Positions 32,641-60,088 of a DNA stretch of 64,000 nt are shown here, one piece after another. How positions within the stretch are numbered: position 1 is the stretch's first letter; the number at the start of each line of letters is the position of its first letter. The translations under genes were made by a program, and so were the position numbers. The notes beneath the pieces were generated by a model. That model ran no database searches. It was not told where the DNA came from and saw only the letters and a program-made list of their open reading frames with translations. This DNA is from Herbidospora yilanensis (GTDB lineage: Bacteria > Actinomycetota > Actinomycetes > Streptosporangiales > Streptosporangiaceae): NCBI RefSeq assembly GCF_001570565.1, contig NZ_BBXE01000015.1:81589-145588 (forward strand), read 5' to 3'.

Positions 32641-33180
32641 ATGAACTCACGCCTGTTCAGAGGTCTCGCCGGGGTGGCCCTCGTCGCGTCCGCGGTCTTA
32701 CCCGCCACCCCCGCGCTCGCGGAGCCCGCCCCGTATGTGCGGGTCATCCTCGACTCGATCGTCGCCCACTCGACCCAGGAGGGCGGCGGGGACGAGATCA
32801 GACTCAAGGTCAAGGGGCCGGGGATCGTGCCGTTCAGCAGCCGTACGGTGCAGATCTGGCCCGCCAACGAGTGGTATCCGCCGGTGGGCGTCCGGACCGG
32901 GGTCTGCTACAGCCCCGACAACGTCGCCTGCCCGCCGGGGATGCCGGTCCAGACGAACGGCGGCGGCACCCCGAACCGCCCGGCCTTCCCCGCGACGGGC
33001 GCTCTCGCGTACATCGACCTGTGGGAGATCGACGACTTCGACCCCGACGACCTGATCCTGGGCGGCTCGGTCCGGCTGACCCCCAGAGAGGGCTTCTCCC
33101 GCCAGACGATCCGCATGAGGACCGGCGACGCCGACTACGAGGTGACCTTCACCCTGGCGCCGAGCGAGACCCCGCTCTGA
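32641..33180 (+). CDS. Secreted protein of unknown function, DE(I/L)R family
   Basis: 179 residues with a signal peptide ending ALA, then a beta-rich secreted domain with one Cys pair (CYSPDNVACP). The segment SIVAHSTQEGGGDEIRLKV resembles SIYANNVDETDGRDELRFL in the secreted protein at 56346-56822, and both end in a strand of type YEV. The two seem to be distant relatives. Exported; role unknown. Confidence 0.7.
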   Translation: MNSRLFRGLAGVALVASAVLPATPALAEPAPYVRVILDSIVAHSTQEGGGDEIRLKVKGPGIVPFSSRTVQIWPANEWYPPVGVRTGVCYSPDNVACPPGMPVQTNGGGTPNRPAFPATGALAYIDLWEIDDFDPDDLILGGSVRLTPREGFSRQTIRMRTGDADYEVTFTLAPSETPL

Positions 33181-37501: not shown

Positions 37502-37641
37502 GGCGTACCTTTGCCCGGAAAGTCGTAGGGACCTACCCCGGCCGGGCACGGTCGAAGACGCGGCCTGCCGCGGATCCGCCGTCCATCTTGCGGAGTTCCC
37601 GGCGTCTCAACCTTCCGTCCCCCGCCGGAGTCCTTAGGGCG

Positions 37642-39767: not shown

Positions 39768-39791
39768 GGGGCCGTCCCGAAGGACGGCCCC
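39768..39791 (-). terminator. Terminator of the downstream peptide gene (A)
   Basis: A perfect 10-bp stem GGGGCCGTCC/GGACGGCCCC with loop CGAA, 14 bases after the stop of the peptide gene at 39806. Confidence 0.8.
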
Positions 39792-39805
39792 GTTCCACCC
39801 CCTGG

Positions 39806-39937
39806 TTACGGCAGGGAGTAGATCACGGCGTCGCGCCAGTCGTAGTTCATCCAGTCGTAGTTCGGGTACATGCCGCCGGTGACGTCGGCGAGCTCGGTGT
39901 CGGCGAGCTCCTCGGCGGTGCTCTCGAAGTTGTTCAT
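39806..39937 (-). CDS. Double-glycine leader peptide precursor A
   Basis: 43 residues. The leader (MNNFESTAEELADTELADV) is acidic and ends in Thr-Gly-Gly, the cleavage signal for C39 peptidases. The predicted 21-residue core begins MYPNYDWMNYDW and ends RDAVIYSLP, with a repeated Asn-Tyr-Asp-Trp unit. No Cys, and only one Ser after the leader, so lanthionine formation is unlikely. AAGGGGG precedes the ATG by a good distance. It is the second of two tandem copies downstream of the peptidase-transporter gene. Probable bacteriocin or signalling peptide; modification, if any, would need enzymes elsewhere. Confidence 0.8.
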   Translation of the reverse strand: MNNFESTAEELADTELADVTGGMYPNYDWMNYDWRDAVIYSLP

Positions 39938-40038
39938 GACAACCCCCTTCGTTCGTGAACCTTGCGGAAACACAGTCGCAGGGGGCACTTGGCTATCACT
40001 TGTGCGCGACTCCGAGCGGTCTCCAAGTCGGATACGCG

Positions 40039-40067
40039 TCGGGGCCGCCCCGCAGGGACGGCCCCGA
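40039..40067 (-). terminator. Terminator of the upstream peptide gene (B)
   Basis: TCGGGGCCG pairs with CGGCCCCGA, extended by CCC/GGG with a one-base bulge around a CGCA loop, 14 bases after the stop of peptide B. It corresponds to the terminator after peptide A, so each duplicated unit keeps its own. Confidence 0.7.
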
Positions 40068-40081
40068 ATCTCACCCCGTGG

Positions 40082-40213
40082 TTACGGCAGCGCCTCGATC
40101 ACCGCGTCGCGCCAGTCGTAGTTCGCCCAGTCGTAGTTCCAGGGCAGACCGCCGGTGACGTCGGCGAGCTCGGTCTCGGTGAGCTCGTTCGCGGTGCTCT
40201 CGAAGTTGTTCAT
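40082..40213 (-). CDS. Double-glycine leader peptide precursor B
   Basis: 43 residues, too short for most gene callers. The leader MNNFESTANELTETELADV ends with the same Thr-Gly-Gly. The core begins LPWNYDWANYDW and ends RDAVIEALP, sharing NYDW-x-NYDWRDAVI and the final Leu-Pro with peptide A. The upstream 35 bases, including AAGGGGG, are nearly identical between copies. The start is 31 bases after the transporter gene stop, so it is co-transcribed with it. Leader positions are better conserved than the first core residues, as expected for a precursor family. Confidence 0.8.
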   Translation of the reverse strand: MNNFESTANELTETELADVTGGLPWNYDWANYDWRDAVIEALP

Positions 40214-40244
40214 GACAACCCCCTTCGTTCGTGAACCTTGCGAA

Positions 40245-42404
40245 TCAAGAGTCGCAGGGGAGACTTGGCGGGATCTTGGCGCTGATTGGGGCGTTCGCTT
40301 GGTGCGCCACCAAGCGCGCGTAATGGCCGCCGAGTTCCACCAGCTCGTCGTGGGTGCCCTGCTCGACGACGCGGCCGTCGTCGACGACCGCGATCAGGTC
40401 GGCGTCGCGGACCGTGCTGAGCCGGTGGGCGATCACGATGCGGGTCTGGGTCAGAGCGGCGAGGTTGCGCTCGATGGCGGCCTCGGTGACCGTGTCGAGG
40501 TGGCTGGTGGCCTCGTCGAACAGCAGCACCTTCGGCCGCCCGAGCACCGCCCTGGCCAGCGCCAGCCGCTGCTTCTGCCCGCCCGACAGGCCCATGCCCT
40601 CCGACAGGTTGGTCTCGTAGCCCATGGGCATCGCCATGATCTCGTCGTGTACGCAGGCCGTCTTCGCCGCCCGCACGATCTCCTGCGGCGTGGCCCCCGG
40701 CCGGCCCAGGGCGATGTTCTCCCTGATGGTGCCGGTGAACAGGTGGGCCTCCTGGGTGACCACCCCGAAGTGGCGCCGCAGGGAGGAGCGCTGGAGGGCC
40801 TCCATCCGGACCGAGTCGTAGCTGACGGTGCCGAAGGTGGGTTCGTACAGGCCGACCATGATGCGCGCGAGGGTGCTCTTGCCCGAGCCGCTCCCGCCGA
40901 CGAGGGCGATCTTCTGGCCCCGGCCGATGGTCAGCGAGATCTTCCACAGGATCCACGGCCCGTTCGGGGCGTGCCGGAACGACACGTCGCGGAGTTCGAT
41001 CTGCCCGCGCAGGTGGCCGACCTGGACCTCGCCGTAGGGCTCGGGGGTGAACTCCAGGATGTCGGCCAGCCGTTCGATGTGGGTGCCCGCTTCCTGGAGG
41101 ACGCGGACCGTCCCCACCAGCGACAGGATCGGCGTCAGGGCCGCTCCCGCCAGCGCGACCAGCGTCAGCGTCTGGCCGAGCGGACGGCCGTCCAGCACCT
41201 CCCAGCCGCCGGTCCAGAGCAGCGCCGCCGGGGCGGCCAGGCGCATGCTGTCGAGGACCGAGGTGACCAGGTTCTCCATGCGCCCCTGCCGCGCGTCGGC
41301 CTTCAACTGGTCGAGGAAGAGCTGCGACCAGCGGCTCAGCGCGGCGTCCTCCAGCGCCCCGGCCTTGAGGATCTCCACTCCCTTGATGGCCTCCATGAGC
41401 TGCCCCTGCGTCTGCACCTGCGCCGACAGCGCCGCCAGGTTCAGGTCGGCCCGCCGCCGCCGGGTGAGGAGCAGCAGCACGGCCTGGACCGCCGCCAGCG
41501 CGAGCAGGCACAACCCCAGTGGCACCGACGACCACAACACGATCGTCACGTAGCCGATCGCGAGCGGCCCGTCGAGCAGCGCCGTCGTGATCGGCCCGGA
41601 GATGAGCTGCCGCAACCGGCTCACGCTGGCGCTGCGCTGGGCCAGATCCCCGGCGCCCCGGGTGGCGAAGTAGCGGTAGGGGAGCCGGAACAGATGGCCG
41701 ACCACCTCCGACGTCAGCAGCCGGTCGGCGCGCAACCGCAGCTTGAGCACGGTCGCCGCGCGGAAATAGGTGAGCCCGAGGTGGACGGCGCCGGCCGCCG
41801 CCAGCGCCAGGCCCAGGGAGGCCAGCAGCGAGGAGTCCTTGGTGGGGAGCACACCGTCGACCAGGATGCCCGAGAACGTCTGCACCCCCAGCCCGAGGAT
41901 CTGCAGCAGCAGCGACGCCAGGAGGATGCGCGCGATGAGGCCCTTCTGCAGCGCGGTTCTGGCGAGCGGGCCGACCCACGTCCGGCGGGCCCGTTTCCGG
42001 GGCTGGAAGGTCTCGCCCGGCTTGAAGGTGAGCAGCACGCCCGAGTAGCCCTCGGCGAACTCGTCCCGGGTCAGCCTGCGGCGGCCGGCCGCCGGGTCGA
42101 CGACGTCGACGTGGCGGGCGGTCTGCCGTTCGACGACCACGAAGTGGTTGCGCCGCCAGTGGGCGACCGCCGGGAGGGGCGCGTCGGTGACGGTCTCGGC
42201 CTTGTAGGCGGTCGCGGTGAGCCCGTAGCCGCGCGCCGCCTTGACGATCGCCAGTGCCGAGAGTCCGTCGCGGCCGACCCCGCACTGCTCGGACACCTCG
42301 CGGACCCCGGTGTGGCGGCCGTGGTGGCTCAGCACCATGGCCAGACAGGCGGCCCCGCATTCGGCCAGGCCCGACTGGAGGCGGACCGGTACTCTCACGT
42401 TCAC
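40245..42404 (-). CDS. Peptidase-containing ABC transporter (C39 peptidase, PCAT)
   Basis: 719 residues. N-terminal C39 peptidase with Cys16 (AECGAACLAMV), His87 (RRNHFVVVE) and Asp103 (VDPAAG). This is followed by a six-helix exporter domain (~150-450) and an ATPase domain (Walker A VGGSGSGKST, signature LSGGQKQRLALARA, Walker B VLLFDEATSHLD, H-loop IVIAHRLST). Such proteins cut the leader after Gly-Gly and export the core. The two precursors immediately downstream are the obvious substrates. GTG 42404 is preferred; the frame is open to 42482, but that stretch holds a terminator hairpin of the preceding gene. Confidence 0.93.
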   Translation of the reverse strand: MNVRVPVRLQSGLAECGAACLAMVLSHHGRHTGVREVSEQCGVGRDGLSALAIVKAARGYGLTATAYKAETVTDAPLPAVAHWRRNHFVVVERQTARHVDVVDPAAGRRRLTRDEFAEGYSGVLLTFKPGETFQPRKRARRTWVGPLARTALQKGLIARILLASLLLQILGLGVQTFSGILVDGVLPTKDSSLLASLGLALAAAGAVHLGLTYFRAATVLKLRLRADRLLTSEVVGHLFRLPYRYFATRGAGDLAQRSASVSRLRQLISGPITTALLDGPLAIGYVTIVLWSSVPLGLCLLALAAVQAVLLLLTRRRRADLNLAALSAQVQTQGQLMEAIKGVEILKAGALEDAALSRWSQLFLDQLKADARQGRMENLVTSVLDSMRLAAPAALLWTGGWEVLDGRPLGQTLTLVALAGAALTPILSLVGTVRVLQEAGTHIERLADILEFTPEPYGEVQVGHLRGQIELRDVSFRHAPNGPWILWKISLTIGRGQKIALVGGSGSGKSTLARIMVGLYEPTFGTVSYDSVRMEALQRSSLRRHFGVVTQEAHLFTGTIRENIALGRPGATPQEIVRAAKTACVHDEIMAMPMGYETNLSEGMGLSGGQKQRLALARAVLGRPKVLLFDEATSHLDTVTEAAIERNLAALTQTRIVIAHRLSTVRDADLIAVVDDGRVVEQGTHDELVELGGHYARLVAHQANAPISAKIPPSLPCDS

Positions 42405-42452
42405 TTTCGTGATCGTGGCAGCCCCGACTTGGACCTCACTTGCCCATGATTT

Positions 42453-42480: not shown

Positions 42481-42493
42481 AAAGGCGGATCGG

Positions 42494-56822: not shown

Positions 56823-56971
56823 GATCGGTCACTCCTTGGGACTGGACGCCCGCGACCGTCGCGAGCGCCGCCCCAGGCTGCGGGGACCACCGTGAGCACA
56901 CCGTTAAGGCCCAGCTACGCGCACTTTCACGCATGGACCGCCGGGGCGCCCCGACGTACGCTCCCCCTGTC

Positions 56972-59900
56972 ATGGGGGACGAATTCACTCTTCTGTTGCT
57001 CGGCCCTCCGTACCTGGCGATCGGGGAGACGCCTGTCGCGGTCCGGTCGGCCAAGAGCCGGGCGCTGCTGTGTTACCTGGCCGCCGTGCCGGGGCCGCGG
57101 CCGAGGGCCGAACTCGCCGGGTTGTTGTGGGGTGAGCGCCCGGACGCGCATGCCCGGGGCAGCCTGCGGCTGGCGCTGTCGGAGTTGCGCAAGGAGGTCG
57201 GCGGGTGGCTCGACATCACCCGTGAGCAGGTGGGCTTCCGCGCCGACCGCCCCCGCTACGTCGACCACGACCGGCTCGCCCAGGCCACCACCATCGGCGA
57301 CGCGCTGCCGCTGTGGCGCGGGGAGTTCCTCGACGGCGTCGCCTTCGTCGACGCCCCGGCCTTCGCGGAGTGGCTCGCCGCCGAACGCCTGCGGGTCCGC
57401 TCACTCTTCCGAGACCTTCTGGTACGTCAGGCGGGCTCCGCCCACGAGATCGTCAGGCTGGCCAGGCTGCTGGGCGAACTCGATCCGTACGACGAGGAGG
57501 TGCACCGCCTCCTCATCTCCTCCCTGGCGGGGACCGGCAACCGCGCCGCCGCCCTGCTCGTCTACGCGGAGCTGCGCGACCGCCTGGCGGCCGACCTCGG
57601 CGTGGAGCCCTCCGCCGAAACACGGGCCACACGTGAGGCGCTGGGCCCGCAGAGAAAGGTGGCCGCCCCGCCCGTGCCCAGCACACCGCTCGTCGGCCGC
57701 AAGGCGGAAGTCGACCAGGTGGCGGCCCTGCTGGAACGGGAGCGGATCGTCACGCTGCTCGGACCGGGCGGAGTGGGCAAGACCCGGCTGGCGCTGGCCG
57801 CCGCCGCGCGCGTGCCGGGCGCGGCGTTCGTCACGTTCGCCGGCGTGGGCCCGGACGCCGCGGTCACCACCGTGGCCCGGCGGCTCGGAATGGATCTGTC
57901 GTCGCCCCGCCCCGCCAGAGAGGTGCTGTTCGAGACCCTCGCCGAACGTTGTCTCCTGCTCGTGCTCGACAACCTGGAGCATCTGCCGGCGTTCGACGCG
58001 GTGATCGGCGACCTGCTCGCCGCCTGCCCCGACGTCCGCGTCCTGGCCACCAGCAGGCGGCGCCTGAGCCTGCCCGGCCCCAGCGTCGTGGTGGAGGGCC
58101 TCACCGCCCCGGCGGCCGAGGAACTGTTCGCCGTCAGGGCCCGGACCGTCCAGCCGGCCTTCGACCCCGGACACGAGGCCGCACTGGTGGCCGGAATCTG
58201 CGCCGCCACCCGCGGCCTGCCGCTCGCGATCGAACTGGCCGCCAGCCTGCTGCGCGCCCTGTCCTGCGCCGACCTCGCCGGCCATCTCGACACCGGTCTG
58301 CTCGGAGCCGACGGCCCCGCCCCCCGGCCGAGGCACGCCACGATGCGCCGGGTGTTCGAGACGTCGTGGACGCTCCTCACCGAGGAGGGACGCCGCGTCC
58401 TGCCGATACTGTCCGCGTTCGGCGGCGGCTTCACCTTGGAGGCCGCCCTCGACGTCGCCGAGACCACGCCCGAGGTGCTCGTCCACCTGGTCGACCACAG
58501 CATGATCACGTTCCAGCCGCCGGGCCGCTACCTCATGCACCCGCTCATCCAGGCCTTCGCGGCCCAGCACCTCACGGCAGAGCAGCCCGTACGCCAGCGT
58601 CACGCCGGCTACTTCGCCGCCCTGCTCGACGCGCACGCCCGAGGCATCCGCGACGCGACCGACGACCGCGCCCCCCTCCTGTTGGGCGCCGAGCTCGACA
58701 ACATCCGCCTGGCCTGGGCACACGCCCCCGAGCCAGACTTCCTCGACCATTACTGGACGTTGTGCCTGCGCCTCGGCCTGTACGAGGAGTCGGCGGCCGT
58801 GGTGGAAGACAGCCTGGCGGGTGACTCCCTCACCGGGGAACCGCGAGCCAGACGACTGCGCATGGCAGCGGTCAGCTACTACCAACTGGCCAAGGAGCGG
58901 CGCGCCCTGCGCCTCGCCGAAGAGGCACTCGAAGCACTGGGCCGGCCACTGCCGTCCGGATGGCGTCGCGCGCTCGTACGCCGGATCGGGCAGATGTTCT
59001 CACCCGCCCGCCGAGACCCGCGCGAGGCGGAGGTGGCCCAGGCCCTGTCCATGATCGCCGTGTTCGCCTACTACCGGCAGGACCTCCCCACGATGTTGTC
59101 GGCCACGTTGCAGCAGCTCAACGCCGTGGACCGAGCCGGCGTCCCCGAACTGCGCGCGGAAGCCTACGCGAACGTCGCCACCGCCGTACGGATCGCCGGC
59201 CGATCACGCCTGGCCGGCCGCTACGCGCGGCGAGCCGACGACGCGCTGGCCTCGCTCCCCCGCACGCACGTTAGCGAGGCCGCGAACCGGGCCCGGCTGG
59301 CACGGGGTGTCGACCAGCTTTCCTGCGGGGCGTTGGAGGCGGCGTGGCGCTCCTTCACCGAAGCCCGGTCGCGGACGCTGGAACCGAGGCTGGCCGAGGT
59401 CTGCACGGGCCTGCTCGCGGAAGCCTCGGTCCTGCGAGGCGAGTTCGGCCGCGCCGCCGAACTGTTCGTGGTGACCGGCGAACTGTCCGCCCGCCGGGTC
59501 GGCGGCGACGACATCGGCCGCTACTGGTGCCTGACCGGGCAGGCGGAGGCGCTGCTGCGTCTGGACGGGGTGCCGTCGGCGCGAATACGGGAGGTGCTGA
59601 CGGCCGCGCTTGCCGCCACGGACCGGCGCCGTGCGCTGGAGCAGGAGTTCGGGCTGCGGAACGGGCCCATCGTCGAGGTGATCCAGCGGATGCGGCTGCT
59701 CACGGGGTTTGCCCGGACGGACCTGCTCGATCGGCGGCCCGAGCGGGCTGCATCGGCCGTACCGGAGATCGTGGCGCTGGCCGGGAGGTTGCCGTCGGCG
59801 CAGCCTGGCATGGTGGAGTGTTGGGCGGGGTTGGCTGAGTTGCTGTGGGAGCTGCGATGGCGTCATCCTGCCACGCTGCGGGCGGTGCTTCGGGGGATGC

Positions 59901-60088
59901 GCCGGTATGTGGCGCGGTATCCGGGGGCGGCGGCGCGGCTGGGGTGGGGGGAAGTGCTGGTGCGGGTTACGGCGGGGATGGCCGTACGGGAGGCGGTTCG
60001 TGAGGCGGGGCGGGCGGCGGATCGGGTGGGGGTGGCCTACGACATCCGGCGAGCGGCGGAGGCGGCCGTTGAGGCTGCAGCTACGTGA
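56972..60088 (+). CDS. AfsR/SARP-type regulator with BTAD, NTPase and helical repeats
   Basis: 1038 residues: a winged-helix DNA-binding domain (~1-80), BTAD (~90-235), an NB-ARC/STAND ATPase (Walker A GPGGVGKTR near 265; Walker B LVLDNLEHL near 330; TSRRRLSL; GLPLAIELAASLLR), and a C-terminal array of TPR-like helices (~550-1038). Such large SARPs control secondary metabolism or stress genes. No biosynthetic cluster lies next to it, but the terpenoid operon is 50 kb away and the unassigned two-gene system immediately upstream. Start ATG 56972 begins the conserved domain; no clear ribosome-binding site, so a leaderless transcript is possible. Confidence 0.9.
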   Translation: MGDEFTLLLLGPPYLAIGETPVAVRSAKSRALLCYLAAVPGPRPRAELAGLLWGERPDAHARGSLRLALSELRKEVGGWLDITREQVGFRADRPRYVDHDRLAQATTIGDALPLWRGEFLDGVAFVDAPAFAEWLAAERLRVRSLFRDLLVRQAGSAHEIVRLARLLGELDPYDEEVHRLLISSLAGTGNRAAALLVYAELRDRLAADLGVEPSAETRATREALGPQRKVAAPPVPSTPLVGRKAEVDQVAALLERERIVTLLGPGGVGKTRLALAAAARVPGAAFVTFAGVGPDAAVTTVARRLGMDLSSPRPAREVLFETLAERCLLLVLDNLEHLPAFDAVIGDLLAACPDVRVLATSRRRLSLPGPSVVVEGLTAPAAEELFAVRARTVQPAFDPGHEAALVAGICAATRGLPLAIELAASLLRALSCADLAGHLDTGLLGADGPAPRPRHATMRRVFETSWTLLTEEGRRVLPILSAFGGGFTLEAALDVAETTPEVLVHLVDHSMITFQPPGRYLMHPLIQAFAAQHLTAEQPVRQRHAGYFAALLDAHARGIRDATDDRAPLLLGAELDNIRLAWAHAPEPDFLDHYWTLCLRLGLYEESAAVVEDSLAGDSLTGEPRARRLRMAAVSYYQLAKERRALRLAEEALEALGRPLPSGWRRALVRRIGQMFSPARRDPREAEVAQALSMIAVFAYYRQDLPTMLSATLQQLNAVDRAGVPELRAEAYANVATAVRIAGRSRLAGRYARRADDALASLPRTHVSEAANRARLARGVDQLSCGALEAAWRSFTEARSRTLEPRLAEVCTGLLAEASVLRGEFGRAAELFVVTGELSARRVGGDDIGRYWCLTGQAEALLRLDGVPSARIREVLTAALAATDRRRALEQEFGLRNGPIVEVIQRMRLLTGFARTDLLDRRPERAASAVPEIVALAGRLPSAQPGMVECWAGLAELLWELRWRHPATLRAVLRGMRRYVARYPGAAARLGWGEVLVRVTAGMAVREAVREAGRAADRVGVAYDIRRAAEAAVEAAAT

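Follow-up and report, generated by a model that had tools for sequence, protein, structure and literature searches.

What does a bacterial cell export with a peptidase-containing ABC transporter (PCAT) whose neighbouring genes code for two short peptides built around the motif NYDW? This question is raised by a cassette at positions 39,768 to 42,404 of a 64,000-nucleotide stretch of Herbidospora yilanensis DNA (contig NZ_BBXE01000015.1, positions 81,589 to 145,588), which we refer to as the window. The whole cassette is encoded on the minus strand in the gene order PCAT, precursor A and precursor B, and the span extends from a hairpin after precursor B up to the start of the PCAT gene. It contains the following genes:

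40245..42404, minus strand: PCAT (C39 peptidase plus ABC permease/ATPase), 719 amino acids, GTG start at 42404 and stop at 40245
40082..40213, minus strand: precursor A, 43 amino acids with a Gly-Gly leader, MNNFESTANELTETELADVTGG/LPWNYDWANYDWRDAVIEALP (leader/core), assigned by frame and conservation
39806..39937, minus strand: precursor B, 43 amino acids with a Gly-Gly leader, MNNFESTAEELADTELADVTGG/MYPNYDWMNYDWRDAVIYSLP (leader/core), assigned by frame and conservation

The genes, their conservation, the promoter motif and the phylogeny of the cassette, as described below, are direct observations. Building on them, we tentatively propose, with confidence just short of even, that a SARP-type regulon makes, cuts and exports acidic aromatic 21-mers, which are probably unmodified and more likely to have a conserved role in signalling or development than to act as a bacteriocin.

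The original prediction had described the large frame as a PCAT with the residues Cys16, His87 and Asp103 intact, which we confirmed by the Pfam domains Peptidase_C39 (E 3.5e-33), ABC_membrane and ABC_tran and by the complete triad (numbered from the GTG at 42404), which is kept in all 27 PCATs compared. The open frame itself opens at 42482, upstream of the assigned start. The highest-ranked PDB matches were ABCB-type exporters covering the ABC part only, and the protein also matched the bacteriocin transporter 4ry2 (E 3e-105, residues 36–726) and ComA (8hf7, E 3.7e-101, residues 36–725). By combining a triad-bearing C39-ABC fusion with an adjoining short Gly-Gly precursor, the cassette corresponds to a PCAT double-glycine peptide system. 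It resembles the PCAT1/ComA systems in the C39-ABC architecture along the whole chain and in the Gly-Gly leader, whereas it differs from them by its other core family, the lack of a recognised immunity partner and an actinomycete SARP-like promoter.

The two small frames proved to be real coding peptides of 43 residues with homologues in further genera, and chance open reading frames were ruled out by this conservation. Both leaders end in ELADVTGG, and the cores share the predicted pattern NYDW-x-NYDWRDAVI...LP. Core A contains no Ser, Thr or Cys and core B one Ser and no Cys, in agreement with the predicted near absence of Ser and Thr; the claimed lack of Cys holds for these two cores, but not for a third Herbidospora paralogue (...DAVMCALP) or for one copy in A. 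catenulata (L051). For the unmodified cores, the calculated monoisotopic neutral masses are 2606.223 (A), 2711.182 (B) and 2522.078 (third paralogue). The cores have a computed net charge of about −3 and no notable helical moment, and an AlphaFold model of precursor A was of low confidence (pLDDT 69.9, pTM 0.31), with helices at residues 13–20 and 34–41.

Searches at several phylogenetic depths placed this peptide family within the Streptosporangiaceae. Using precursor A as the query against 149 related genomes, we obtained matches in all seven Herbidospora genomes (2–4 each) and in one genome each of Acrocarpospora and Microbispora; a tenth match in a member of another family (G136, E 0.008) gave a poor alignment and was not counted. 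The best homologues in the six other Herbidospora genomes reached E values of 4e-25 to 5e-17, and further ones occur in Acrocarpospora, Microbispora and Nonomuraea. A profile search across the family gave 14 positive genomes out of 297, and scanning a collection of 84,980 species, each represented by one genome, with two peptide patterns, as the original prediction had suggested for the core, yielded 20 loci, all in these four Streptosporangiaceae genera. In a class-wide sample, 4 of 394 genomes matched at E ≤ 0.001, every one belonging to the Streptosporangiaceae, and nothing convincing was found outside the family. After merging by contig and position, the set comprised 31 NYDW precursor genes in 16 genomes: 21 in seven Herbidospora, five in four Acrocarpospora, two in two Microbispora and one each in N. 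antri, N. spiralis and G298 (genus g4). Searches of plasmid and phage collections for a mobile origin gave no match. The literature searched contained no account of NYDW Gly-Gly peptides, and none of the titles listed for papers containing the string NYDW deals with them. Apparently, we are dealing with a peptide family undescribed so far, as had been suspected, which occurs in Herbidospora and related soil bacteria together with a dedicated cutting and export pump.

Each genome has between one and four precursors, with cores that are near-identical paralogues, and only one precursor was seen in several genomes, so the suggested two-component nature of the system found no support. In the window's genome, the third Herbidospora paralogue (MSDFASS...ITGGHAPDYNWAEYDWRDAVMCALP) lies at G000:C28 near genes for MTHFR and a polyprenyl synthetase, without a PCAT; this paralogue was found in six of the seven Herbidospora genomes. 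The core of N. spiralis contains a single NYDW unit; therefore, the repeat is a five-residue unit varying in number. In some relatives, the leader ends in Asn-Gly-Gly instead of Thr-Gly-Gly. About 4 kb from its NYDW precursor, N. spiralis contains a further frame for a Gly-Gly peptide (...LVSGGMRMQRCYGTNGNPPTDWVSDY; L057, 3942–4107). A complete PCAT adjoins the precursors in all seven Herbidospora genomes and at four Acrocarpospora loci, and it was the most widely shared neighbour, present at 7 of the 12 loci compared. As to the stops and frameshifts that the original prediction had named as a sign of non-coding DNA, the core is frameshifted in A. pleiomorpha, and the M. amethystogenes precursor (L049) has lost its ATG.

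To describe selection, substitutions were counted in 26 precursors, leaving out L046, L050, L057 and L058 (indels or a frameshift) and G298. The cores of the six A orthologues showed no non-synonymous versus an average of 2.2 synonymous differences per pair, compared with 5.4 non-synonymous versus 1.3 synonymous differences in their leaders. This pattern of substitutions indicates that the core is under strong purifying selection in the six A orthologues. Core pN and pS were 0.027 versus 0.098 in the B group and 0.035 versus 0.179 in the C group.

All three genes of the cassette are preceded by the same motif, CAAG-N7-CAAG-N7-TG-N-nAnnnT, in which 11-bp repeats are phased onto an extended −10 element. 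The sites, all identified by matching this motif, are as follows:

42412..42442, minus strand: promoter site before the PCAT gene, CAAGTGAGGTCCAAGTCGGGGCTGCCACGAT, ending 7 nt upstream of its start
40248..40278, minus strand: promoter site before precursor A, located inside the PCAT gene at its 3' end, CAAGATCCCGCCAAGTCTCCCCTGCGACTCT
39972..40002, minus strand: promoter site before precursor B, CAAGTGATAGCCAAGTGCCCCCTGCGACTGT

Because the GTG of the PCAT gene lies only 7 nt past the −10-like hexamer, its mRNA is probably leaderless, and eight PCATs of other loci likewise have the end of the site at −6 or −7. Among 30 precursors scanned, the motif was exact in 25, had one mismatch in three and two mismatches in two, with the sites ending 34–42 nt upstream of the start; the 31st precursor (G298) has an exact site, too. 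As a control, we used 284 genes of at least 150 amino acids from the window and the 20 loci, of which eight had exact sites, all eight being PCATs, while none of the remaining 276 had a site at 0–1 mismatch. The three exact sites in the window all lie within the cassette, compared with none in 60 trials with 64-kb sequences generated by a first-order Markov model. A search of the region for sigma-70 promoters with a −35 box was negative. On the scale of seven whole Herbidospora genomes, the 32 exact sites precede PCATs (7), NYDW precursors (17), genes for DUF5685 proteins (7) and one secreted protein, compared with a single match in total for the reversed pattern. Seven genomes of other genera contained 16 exact sites, namely before eight precursors, four PCATs, two DUF5685 genes and at two other Acrocarpospora positions (G033:C154 and G169:C36), and the reversed control again gave one match. 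Searching the window's genome with two mismatches was uninformative (14 matches vs. 45 for the reversed control). An extra one-mismatch site (G000:C13) recurs by sequence in all seven Herbidospora genomes; in G000, it lies directly 3' of an AfsR-like gene and directly 5' of a 232-aa frame. Elsewhere in the window, a two-mismatch CAAG site ends 7 nt upstream of a gene for a secreted-looking protein of 179 amino acids (32641–33180), in a leaderless layout like that of the PCAT gene.

According to a published description, the sites of SARP regulators are heptamer repeats, classically 11 bp apart, across the −35 region (PMC10972967). The promoter architecture found here resembles them, as judged by sequence alone, in its 11-bp direct repeats placed over −35 and phased to the −10 element. 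It differs in the CAAG repeat core and the extended −10. One candidate activator is the AfsR/SARP-like regulator with a BTAD domain (PF03704, E 8e-20) encoded in the window at 56933–60088, about 14.5 kb from the cassette. According to our proposal, an activator of the SARP/OmpR type would bind the CAAG direct repeats and switch on three transcription units in the window, i.e., the leaderless PCAT mRNA, precursor A and precursor B, as well as the third precursor elsewhere in the genome and the unlinked DUF5685 gene. As expected from the known properties of the transporter family, the C39 domain would then cut after Thr-Gly-Gly (Asn-Gly-Gly in some relatives), and the permease would export the 21-residue core. 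The core would probably be released without major modification and may act extracellularly as a conserved self-made signal or developmental peptide, not as a diversifying bacteriocin.

The 11 NYDW PCATs form one group (support 100/100) in a tree of 27 PCATs, and their nearest relatives are 46–57% identical in 15 of the 16 cases fetched and 33% identical in one. Several of these sister PCATs are located in clusters with an ATP-grasp protein (for each of the four tested, TIGR04187 was the nearest model, with a score under its cut-off) and a TIGR04500 protein (the one tested scored above the cut-off), while no ATP-grasp gene was seen at sister loci such as L203 and L204. The CAAG promoter was present at 0–1 mismatch in 6 of the 16 fetched PCAT loci, and an AfsR-like SARP gene adjoins the sister PCAT of H. 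galbida. Gly-Gly precursors of these PCAT clusters (e.g., ...EVAGGRMSVSWKIGGKPAEWVIS), several of which contain ATP-grasp genes, also carry the promoter upstream at 0–1 mismatch, at the following loci:

L196, 3170–3377
L200, 3381–3597 (reversed)
L203, 5536–5877 (reversed)
L208
L209

The NYDW cassettes share with the graspetide clusters of Streptosporangiaceae (PCAT plus TIGR04500) the nearest PCAT kinship, Gly-Gly leaders and, in several cases, the CAAG promoter, but they lack a recognised ATP-grasp or TIGR04500 gene, and core A offers no Lys, Ser or Thr for a linkage and core B one Ser only. An ATP-grasp enzyme acting in trans was considered as well and is weighed down by TIGR04500 passing its cut-off in only two of the seven Herbidospora genomes, with weaker TIGR04500-like matches in all seven. 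The cassette might also be the relic of a former graspetide cluster which has lost its maturase and is now decaying, as suggested by the sister clusters, some with the same promoter, and by the decayed copies of M. amethystogenes and A. pleiomorpha. The purifying selection on the core, the intact triad and promoter and the retention in all seven Herbidospora genomes argue against this, and we regard it as very unlikely.

Because the shared promoter pointed to only one candidate for a partner acting in trans, the DUF5685 protein, it may be considered whether this protein modifies or chaperones the NYDW cores before export. The protein (PF18937, E 2.5e-26; 356 amino acids in the window's genome) contains the conserved stretches HLCGLC, TNYDGL, KDH and an Asp-rich stretch, followed by a Cys-rich tail. 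Proteins of this family (e.g., L111, 8639–9709) mostly end in such a metallothionein-like tail, which differs between species. The exact promoter precedes the gene in all seven Herbidospora genomes, A. corrugata and A. macrocephala, and three further genera (G021, G049 and G063), all with PCATs, have it with one mismatch. The remaining loci read were two or more mismatches off. Upstream DNA was available for 30 loci in the main scan and for four more read separately, out of all DUF5685 matches. Across the 30 loci, DUF5685 genes with a promoter at up to one mismatch coincided with a PCAT in 5 of 5 genera, compared with 7 of 19 genera without the promoter (Fisher p 0.037). DUF5685 and PCAT genes also co-occurred among 120 relatives (21/36 vs. 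21/84 genomes, p 0.0007), a value which is inflated by kinship and assumes that the same 120 genomes were covered by both searches. Trans-maturation would further be in line with the ATP-grasp peptides served by several sister PCATs and with the frameshifted precursor of A. pleiomorpha, which has no DUF5685 match. On the other hand, A. catenulata combines an intact cassette with only a divergent DUF5685 gene, which lacks the promoter (three mismatches), the promoter is likewise absent before the DUF5685 genes of M. amethystogenes, M. siamensis and G298, and the family occurs in 42 of the 120 relatives, mostly in genomes without NYDW peptides. Searches of DUF5685 against the PDB gave nothing significant. 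The Asp-rich motifs, a possible hint of an isoprenoid-synthase fold, led to no such assignment: the corresponding PDB match was non-significant (E 0.12), and a profile comparison with polyprenyl synthetases gave a probability of 0.1% with a shallow template, leaving DUF5685 without a known enzyme fold. Accordingly weakened by A. catenulata, a role of DUF5685 in modifying or chaperoning the cores appears rather unlikely to us. The wider version, a dispersed pathway whose precursors, transporter and trans-encoded DUF5685 protein are joined only by the SARP-type promoter, with DUF5685 as a new maturase or carrier for NYDW and perhaps other PCAT peptides, seems quite unlikely.

The original prediction had found no maturase next to the precursors, and this was borne out: neither the 17 window frames scanned with Pfam (part of the window's genes, two of them probably not genes) nor the nine scanned frames common to different genera contained a maturase domain, including ATP-grasp. 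The cassette does not fit a lanthipeptide or disulfide bacteriocin either, as already supposed, since cores A and B lack Cys and no LanM-like enzyme is present in the 17 window frames. As a further alternative, Tyr and Trp side chains could be cross-linked by a radical SAM enzyme or a P450 whose gene lies elsewhere, since the W-x-N and W-R-D stretches of the core are, as we presume, reminiscent of three-residue cyclophane motifs. Neither enzyme type was recognised among the cross-genus neighbours or behind any exact promoter site in the seven Herbidospora genomes, a result that does not extend to genome-wide inventories, and a cross-linked product has, in our estimate, a very low probability.

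A PCAT, Gly-Gly leaders and tandem precursors are a common bacteriocin arrangement, and the peptides could be narrow-range bacteriocins, i.e., unmodified linear peptides killing close relatives. Weak NCBIfam matches include class II bacteriocin leaders, all under the cut-off; the class IIb model TIGR03949 scored 15.0 and 14.6 bits against a cut-off of 21.5. The cassette resembles class IIb two-peptide bacteriocins in its tandem pair of Gly-Gly precursors and the weak leader similarity, but its cores are near-identical paralogues, with copy numbers of 1–4. Moreover, the core is almost invariant across genera and net acidic, without a notable amphipathic moment; acidic cores lacking a helical moment differ from typical membrane-active bacteriocins. 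No immunity gene was recognised among the neighbours common to different genera, and the cassette holds the same chromosomal place in all seven Herbidospora genomes. We consider a bacteriocin function unlikely and prefer the reading of a conserved signal or developmental peptide.

Several observations weigh against this preferred reading. A receptor or kinase tied to the cassette across genera was not found. Over all paralogue pairs of the 26 precursors, the core pN/pS of 0.67 is hardly below that of the leader (0.76). In the B group, the core from the window is the outlier and deviates from the B core of the genus. The decay in A. pleiomorpha and M. amethystogenes counts here as well, the latter (L049) retaining only the ATPase half of the PCAT in addition to its lost ATG. 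No PCAT lies within 8 kb of L046, L048, L050 and L057, and the third Herbidospora paralogue (L025, L034–L038) and probably the G298 precursor are without an adjoining NYDW-type PCAT; therefore, such precursors are served by another PCAT, or some are relics. Only sister-type PCATs (best 51–53% identity) are present in M. siamensis, M. amethystogenes, N. spiralis (G356) and G298, while the other locus of A. catenulata includes a PCAT of the NYDW type (77% identity) and the N. antri genome (L050) was read around the precursor only. Furthermore, several sister PCATs adjoin maturases. Finally, the motif at one mismatch recurs upstream of unrelated genes in two to seven of the seven Herbidospora genomes:

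L220, L216, L214/L118 and L219: sites recurring by sequence before genes for Spo0M, a LuxR-type regulator, a secreted protein of the I36/crystallin-like type and a trypsin-like protein (most sites are one mismatch off, that of L118 is exact; the gene identities are those in the window's genome, or in G001 for L118)

Therefore, the regulon may be broad and its regulator may control development more widely, which counts against DUF5685 as a peptide-specific component.

The remaining features of the cassette concern its repeats and hairpins. The precursor units A and B represent a 198-bp tandem duplication with 87% identity, and a GC-rich hairpin follows each precursor, while a search of the region for T-tailed terminators found none:

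39796..39993: copy 1 of the 198-bp tandem duplication (unit B), by repeat comparison
40072..40269: second copy of this duplication (unit A), with 87% identity to copy 1, by repeat comparison
40039..40067, minus strand: GC-rich hairpin 3' of precursor A, 13-nt arms, 92% paired, without a T-run
39768..39791, minus strand: GC-rich hairpin 3' of precursor B, 10-nt perfect arms, without a T-run

In Herbidospora, the cassette is surrounded by genes for a HAD hydrolase, a DJ-1/PfpI protein and a ThuA-lectin protein; the HAD and DJ-1 genes flank it in all seven genomes, and neither was found in the vicinity of the loci from other genera. Apart from the PCAT, the frames shared between genera occur at up to 4 of the 12 loci and code for a TetR regulator, a cellulose-binding secreted protein, an alcohol dehydrogenase, NAD-binding and short-chain dehydrogenases and a few proteins without a Pfam match. 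The TetR-type regulator lies at most a few kb from the precursor in two Microbispora (L048, 6862–7530; L049, 4163–4831) and in N. antri (L050, 9234–10037). In the six other Herbidospora (L026–L031), a gene of 892–894 codons (MALFDRL...) lies between the genes for a glyoxalase-like protein and an ECF sigma factor; this 892–894-codon gene is absent from the window at 37549–37588.

Beyond the original prediction, the analysis added the SARP-like promoter, the third paralogue, the varying repeat number and the kinship to transporters of ATP-grasp peptides. The NYDW family is one that genome mining by adjacent maturases would miss, and promoter footprinting is able to indicate distant genomic partners of such orphan peptides. 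DUF5685 obtains a testable physiological context, and this widespread family would gain its first function if the dispersed pathway were true. For the actinomycetes, PCAT-exported peptides become tied to a regulator architecture of the antibiotic type.

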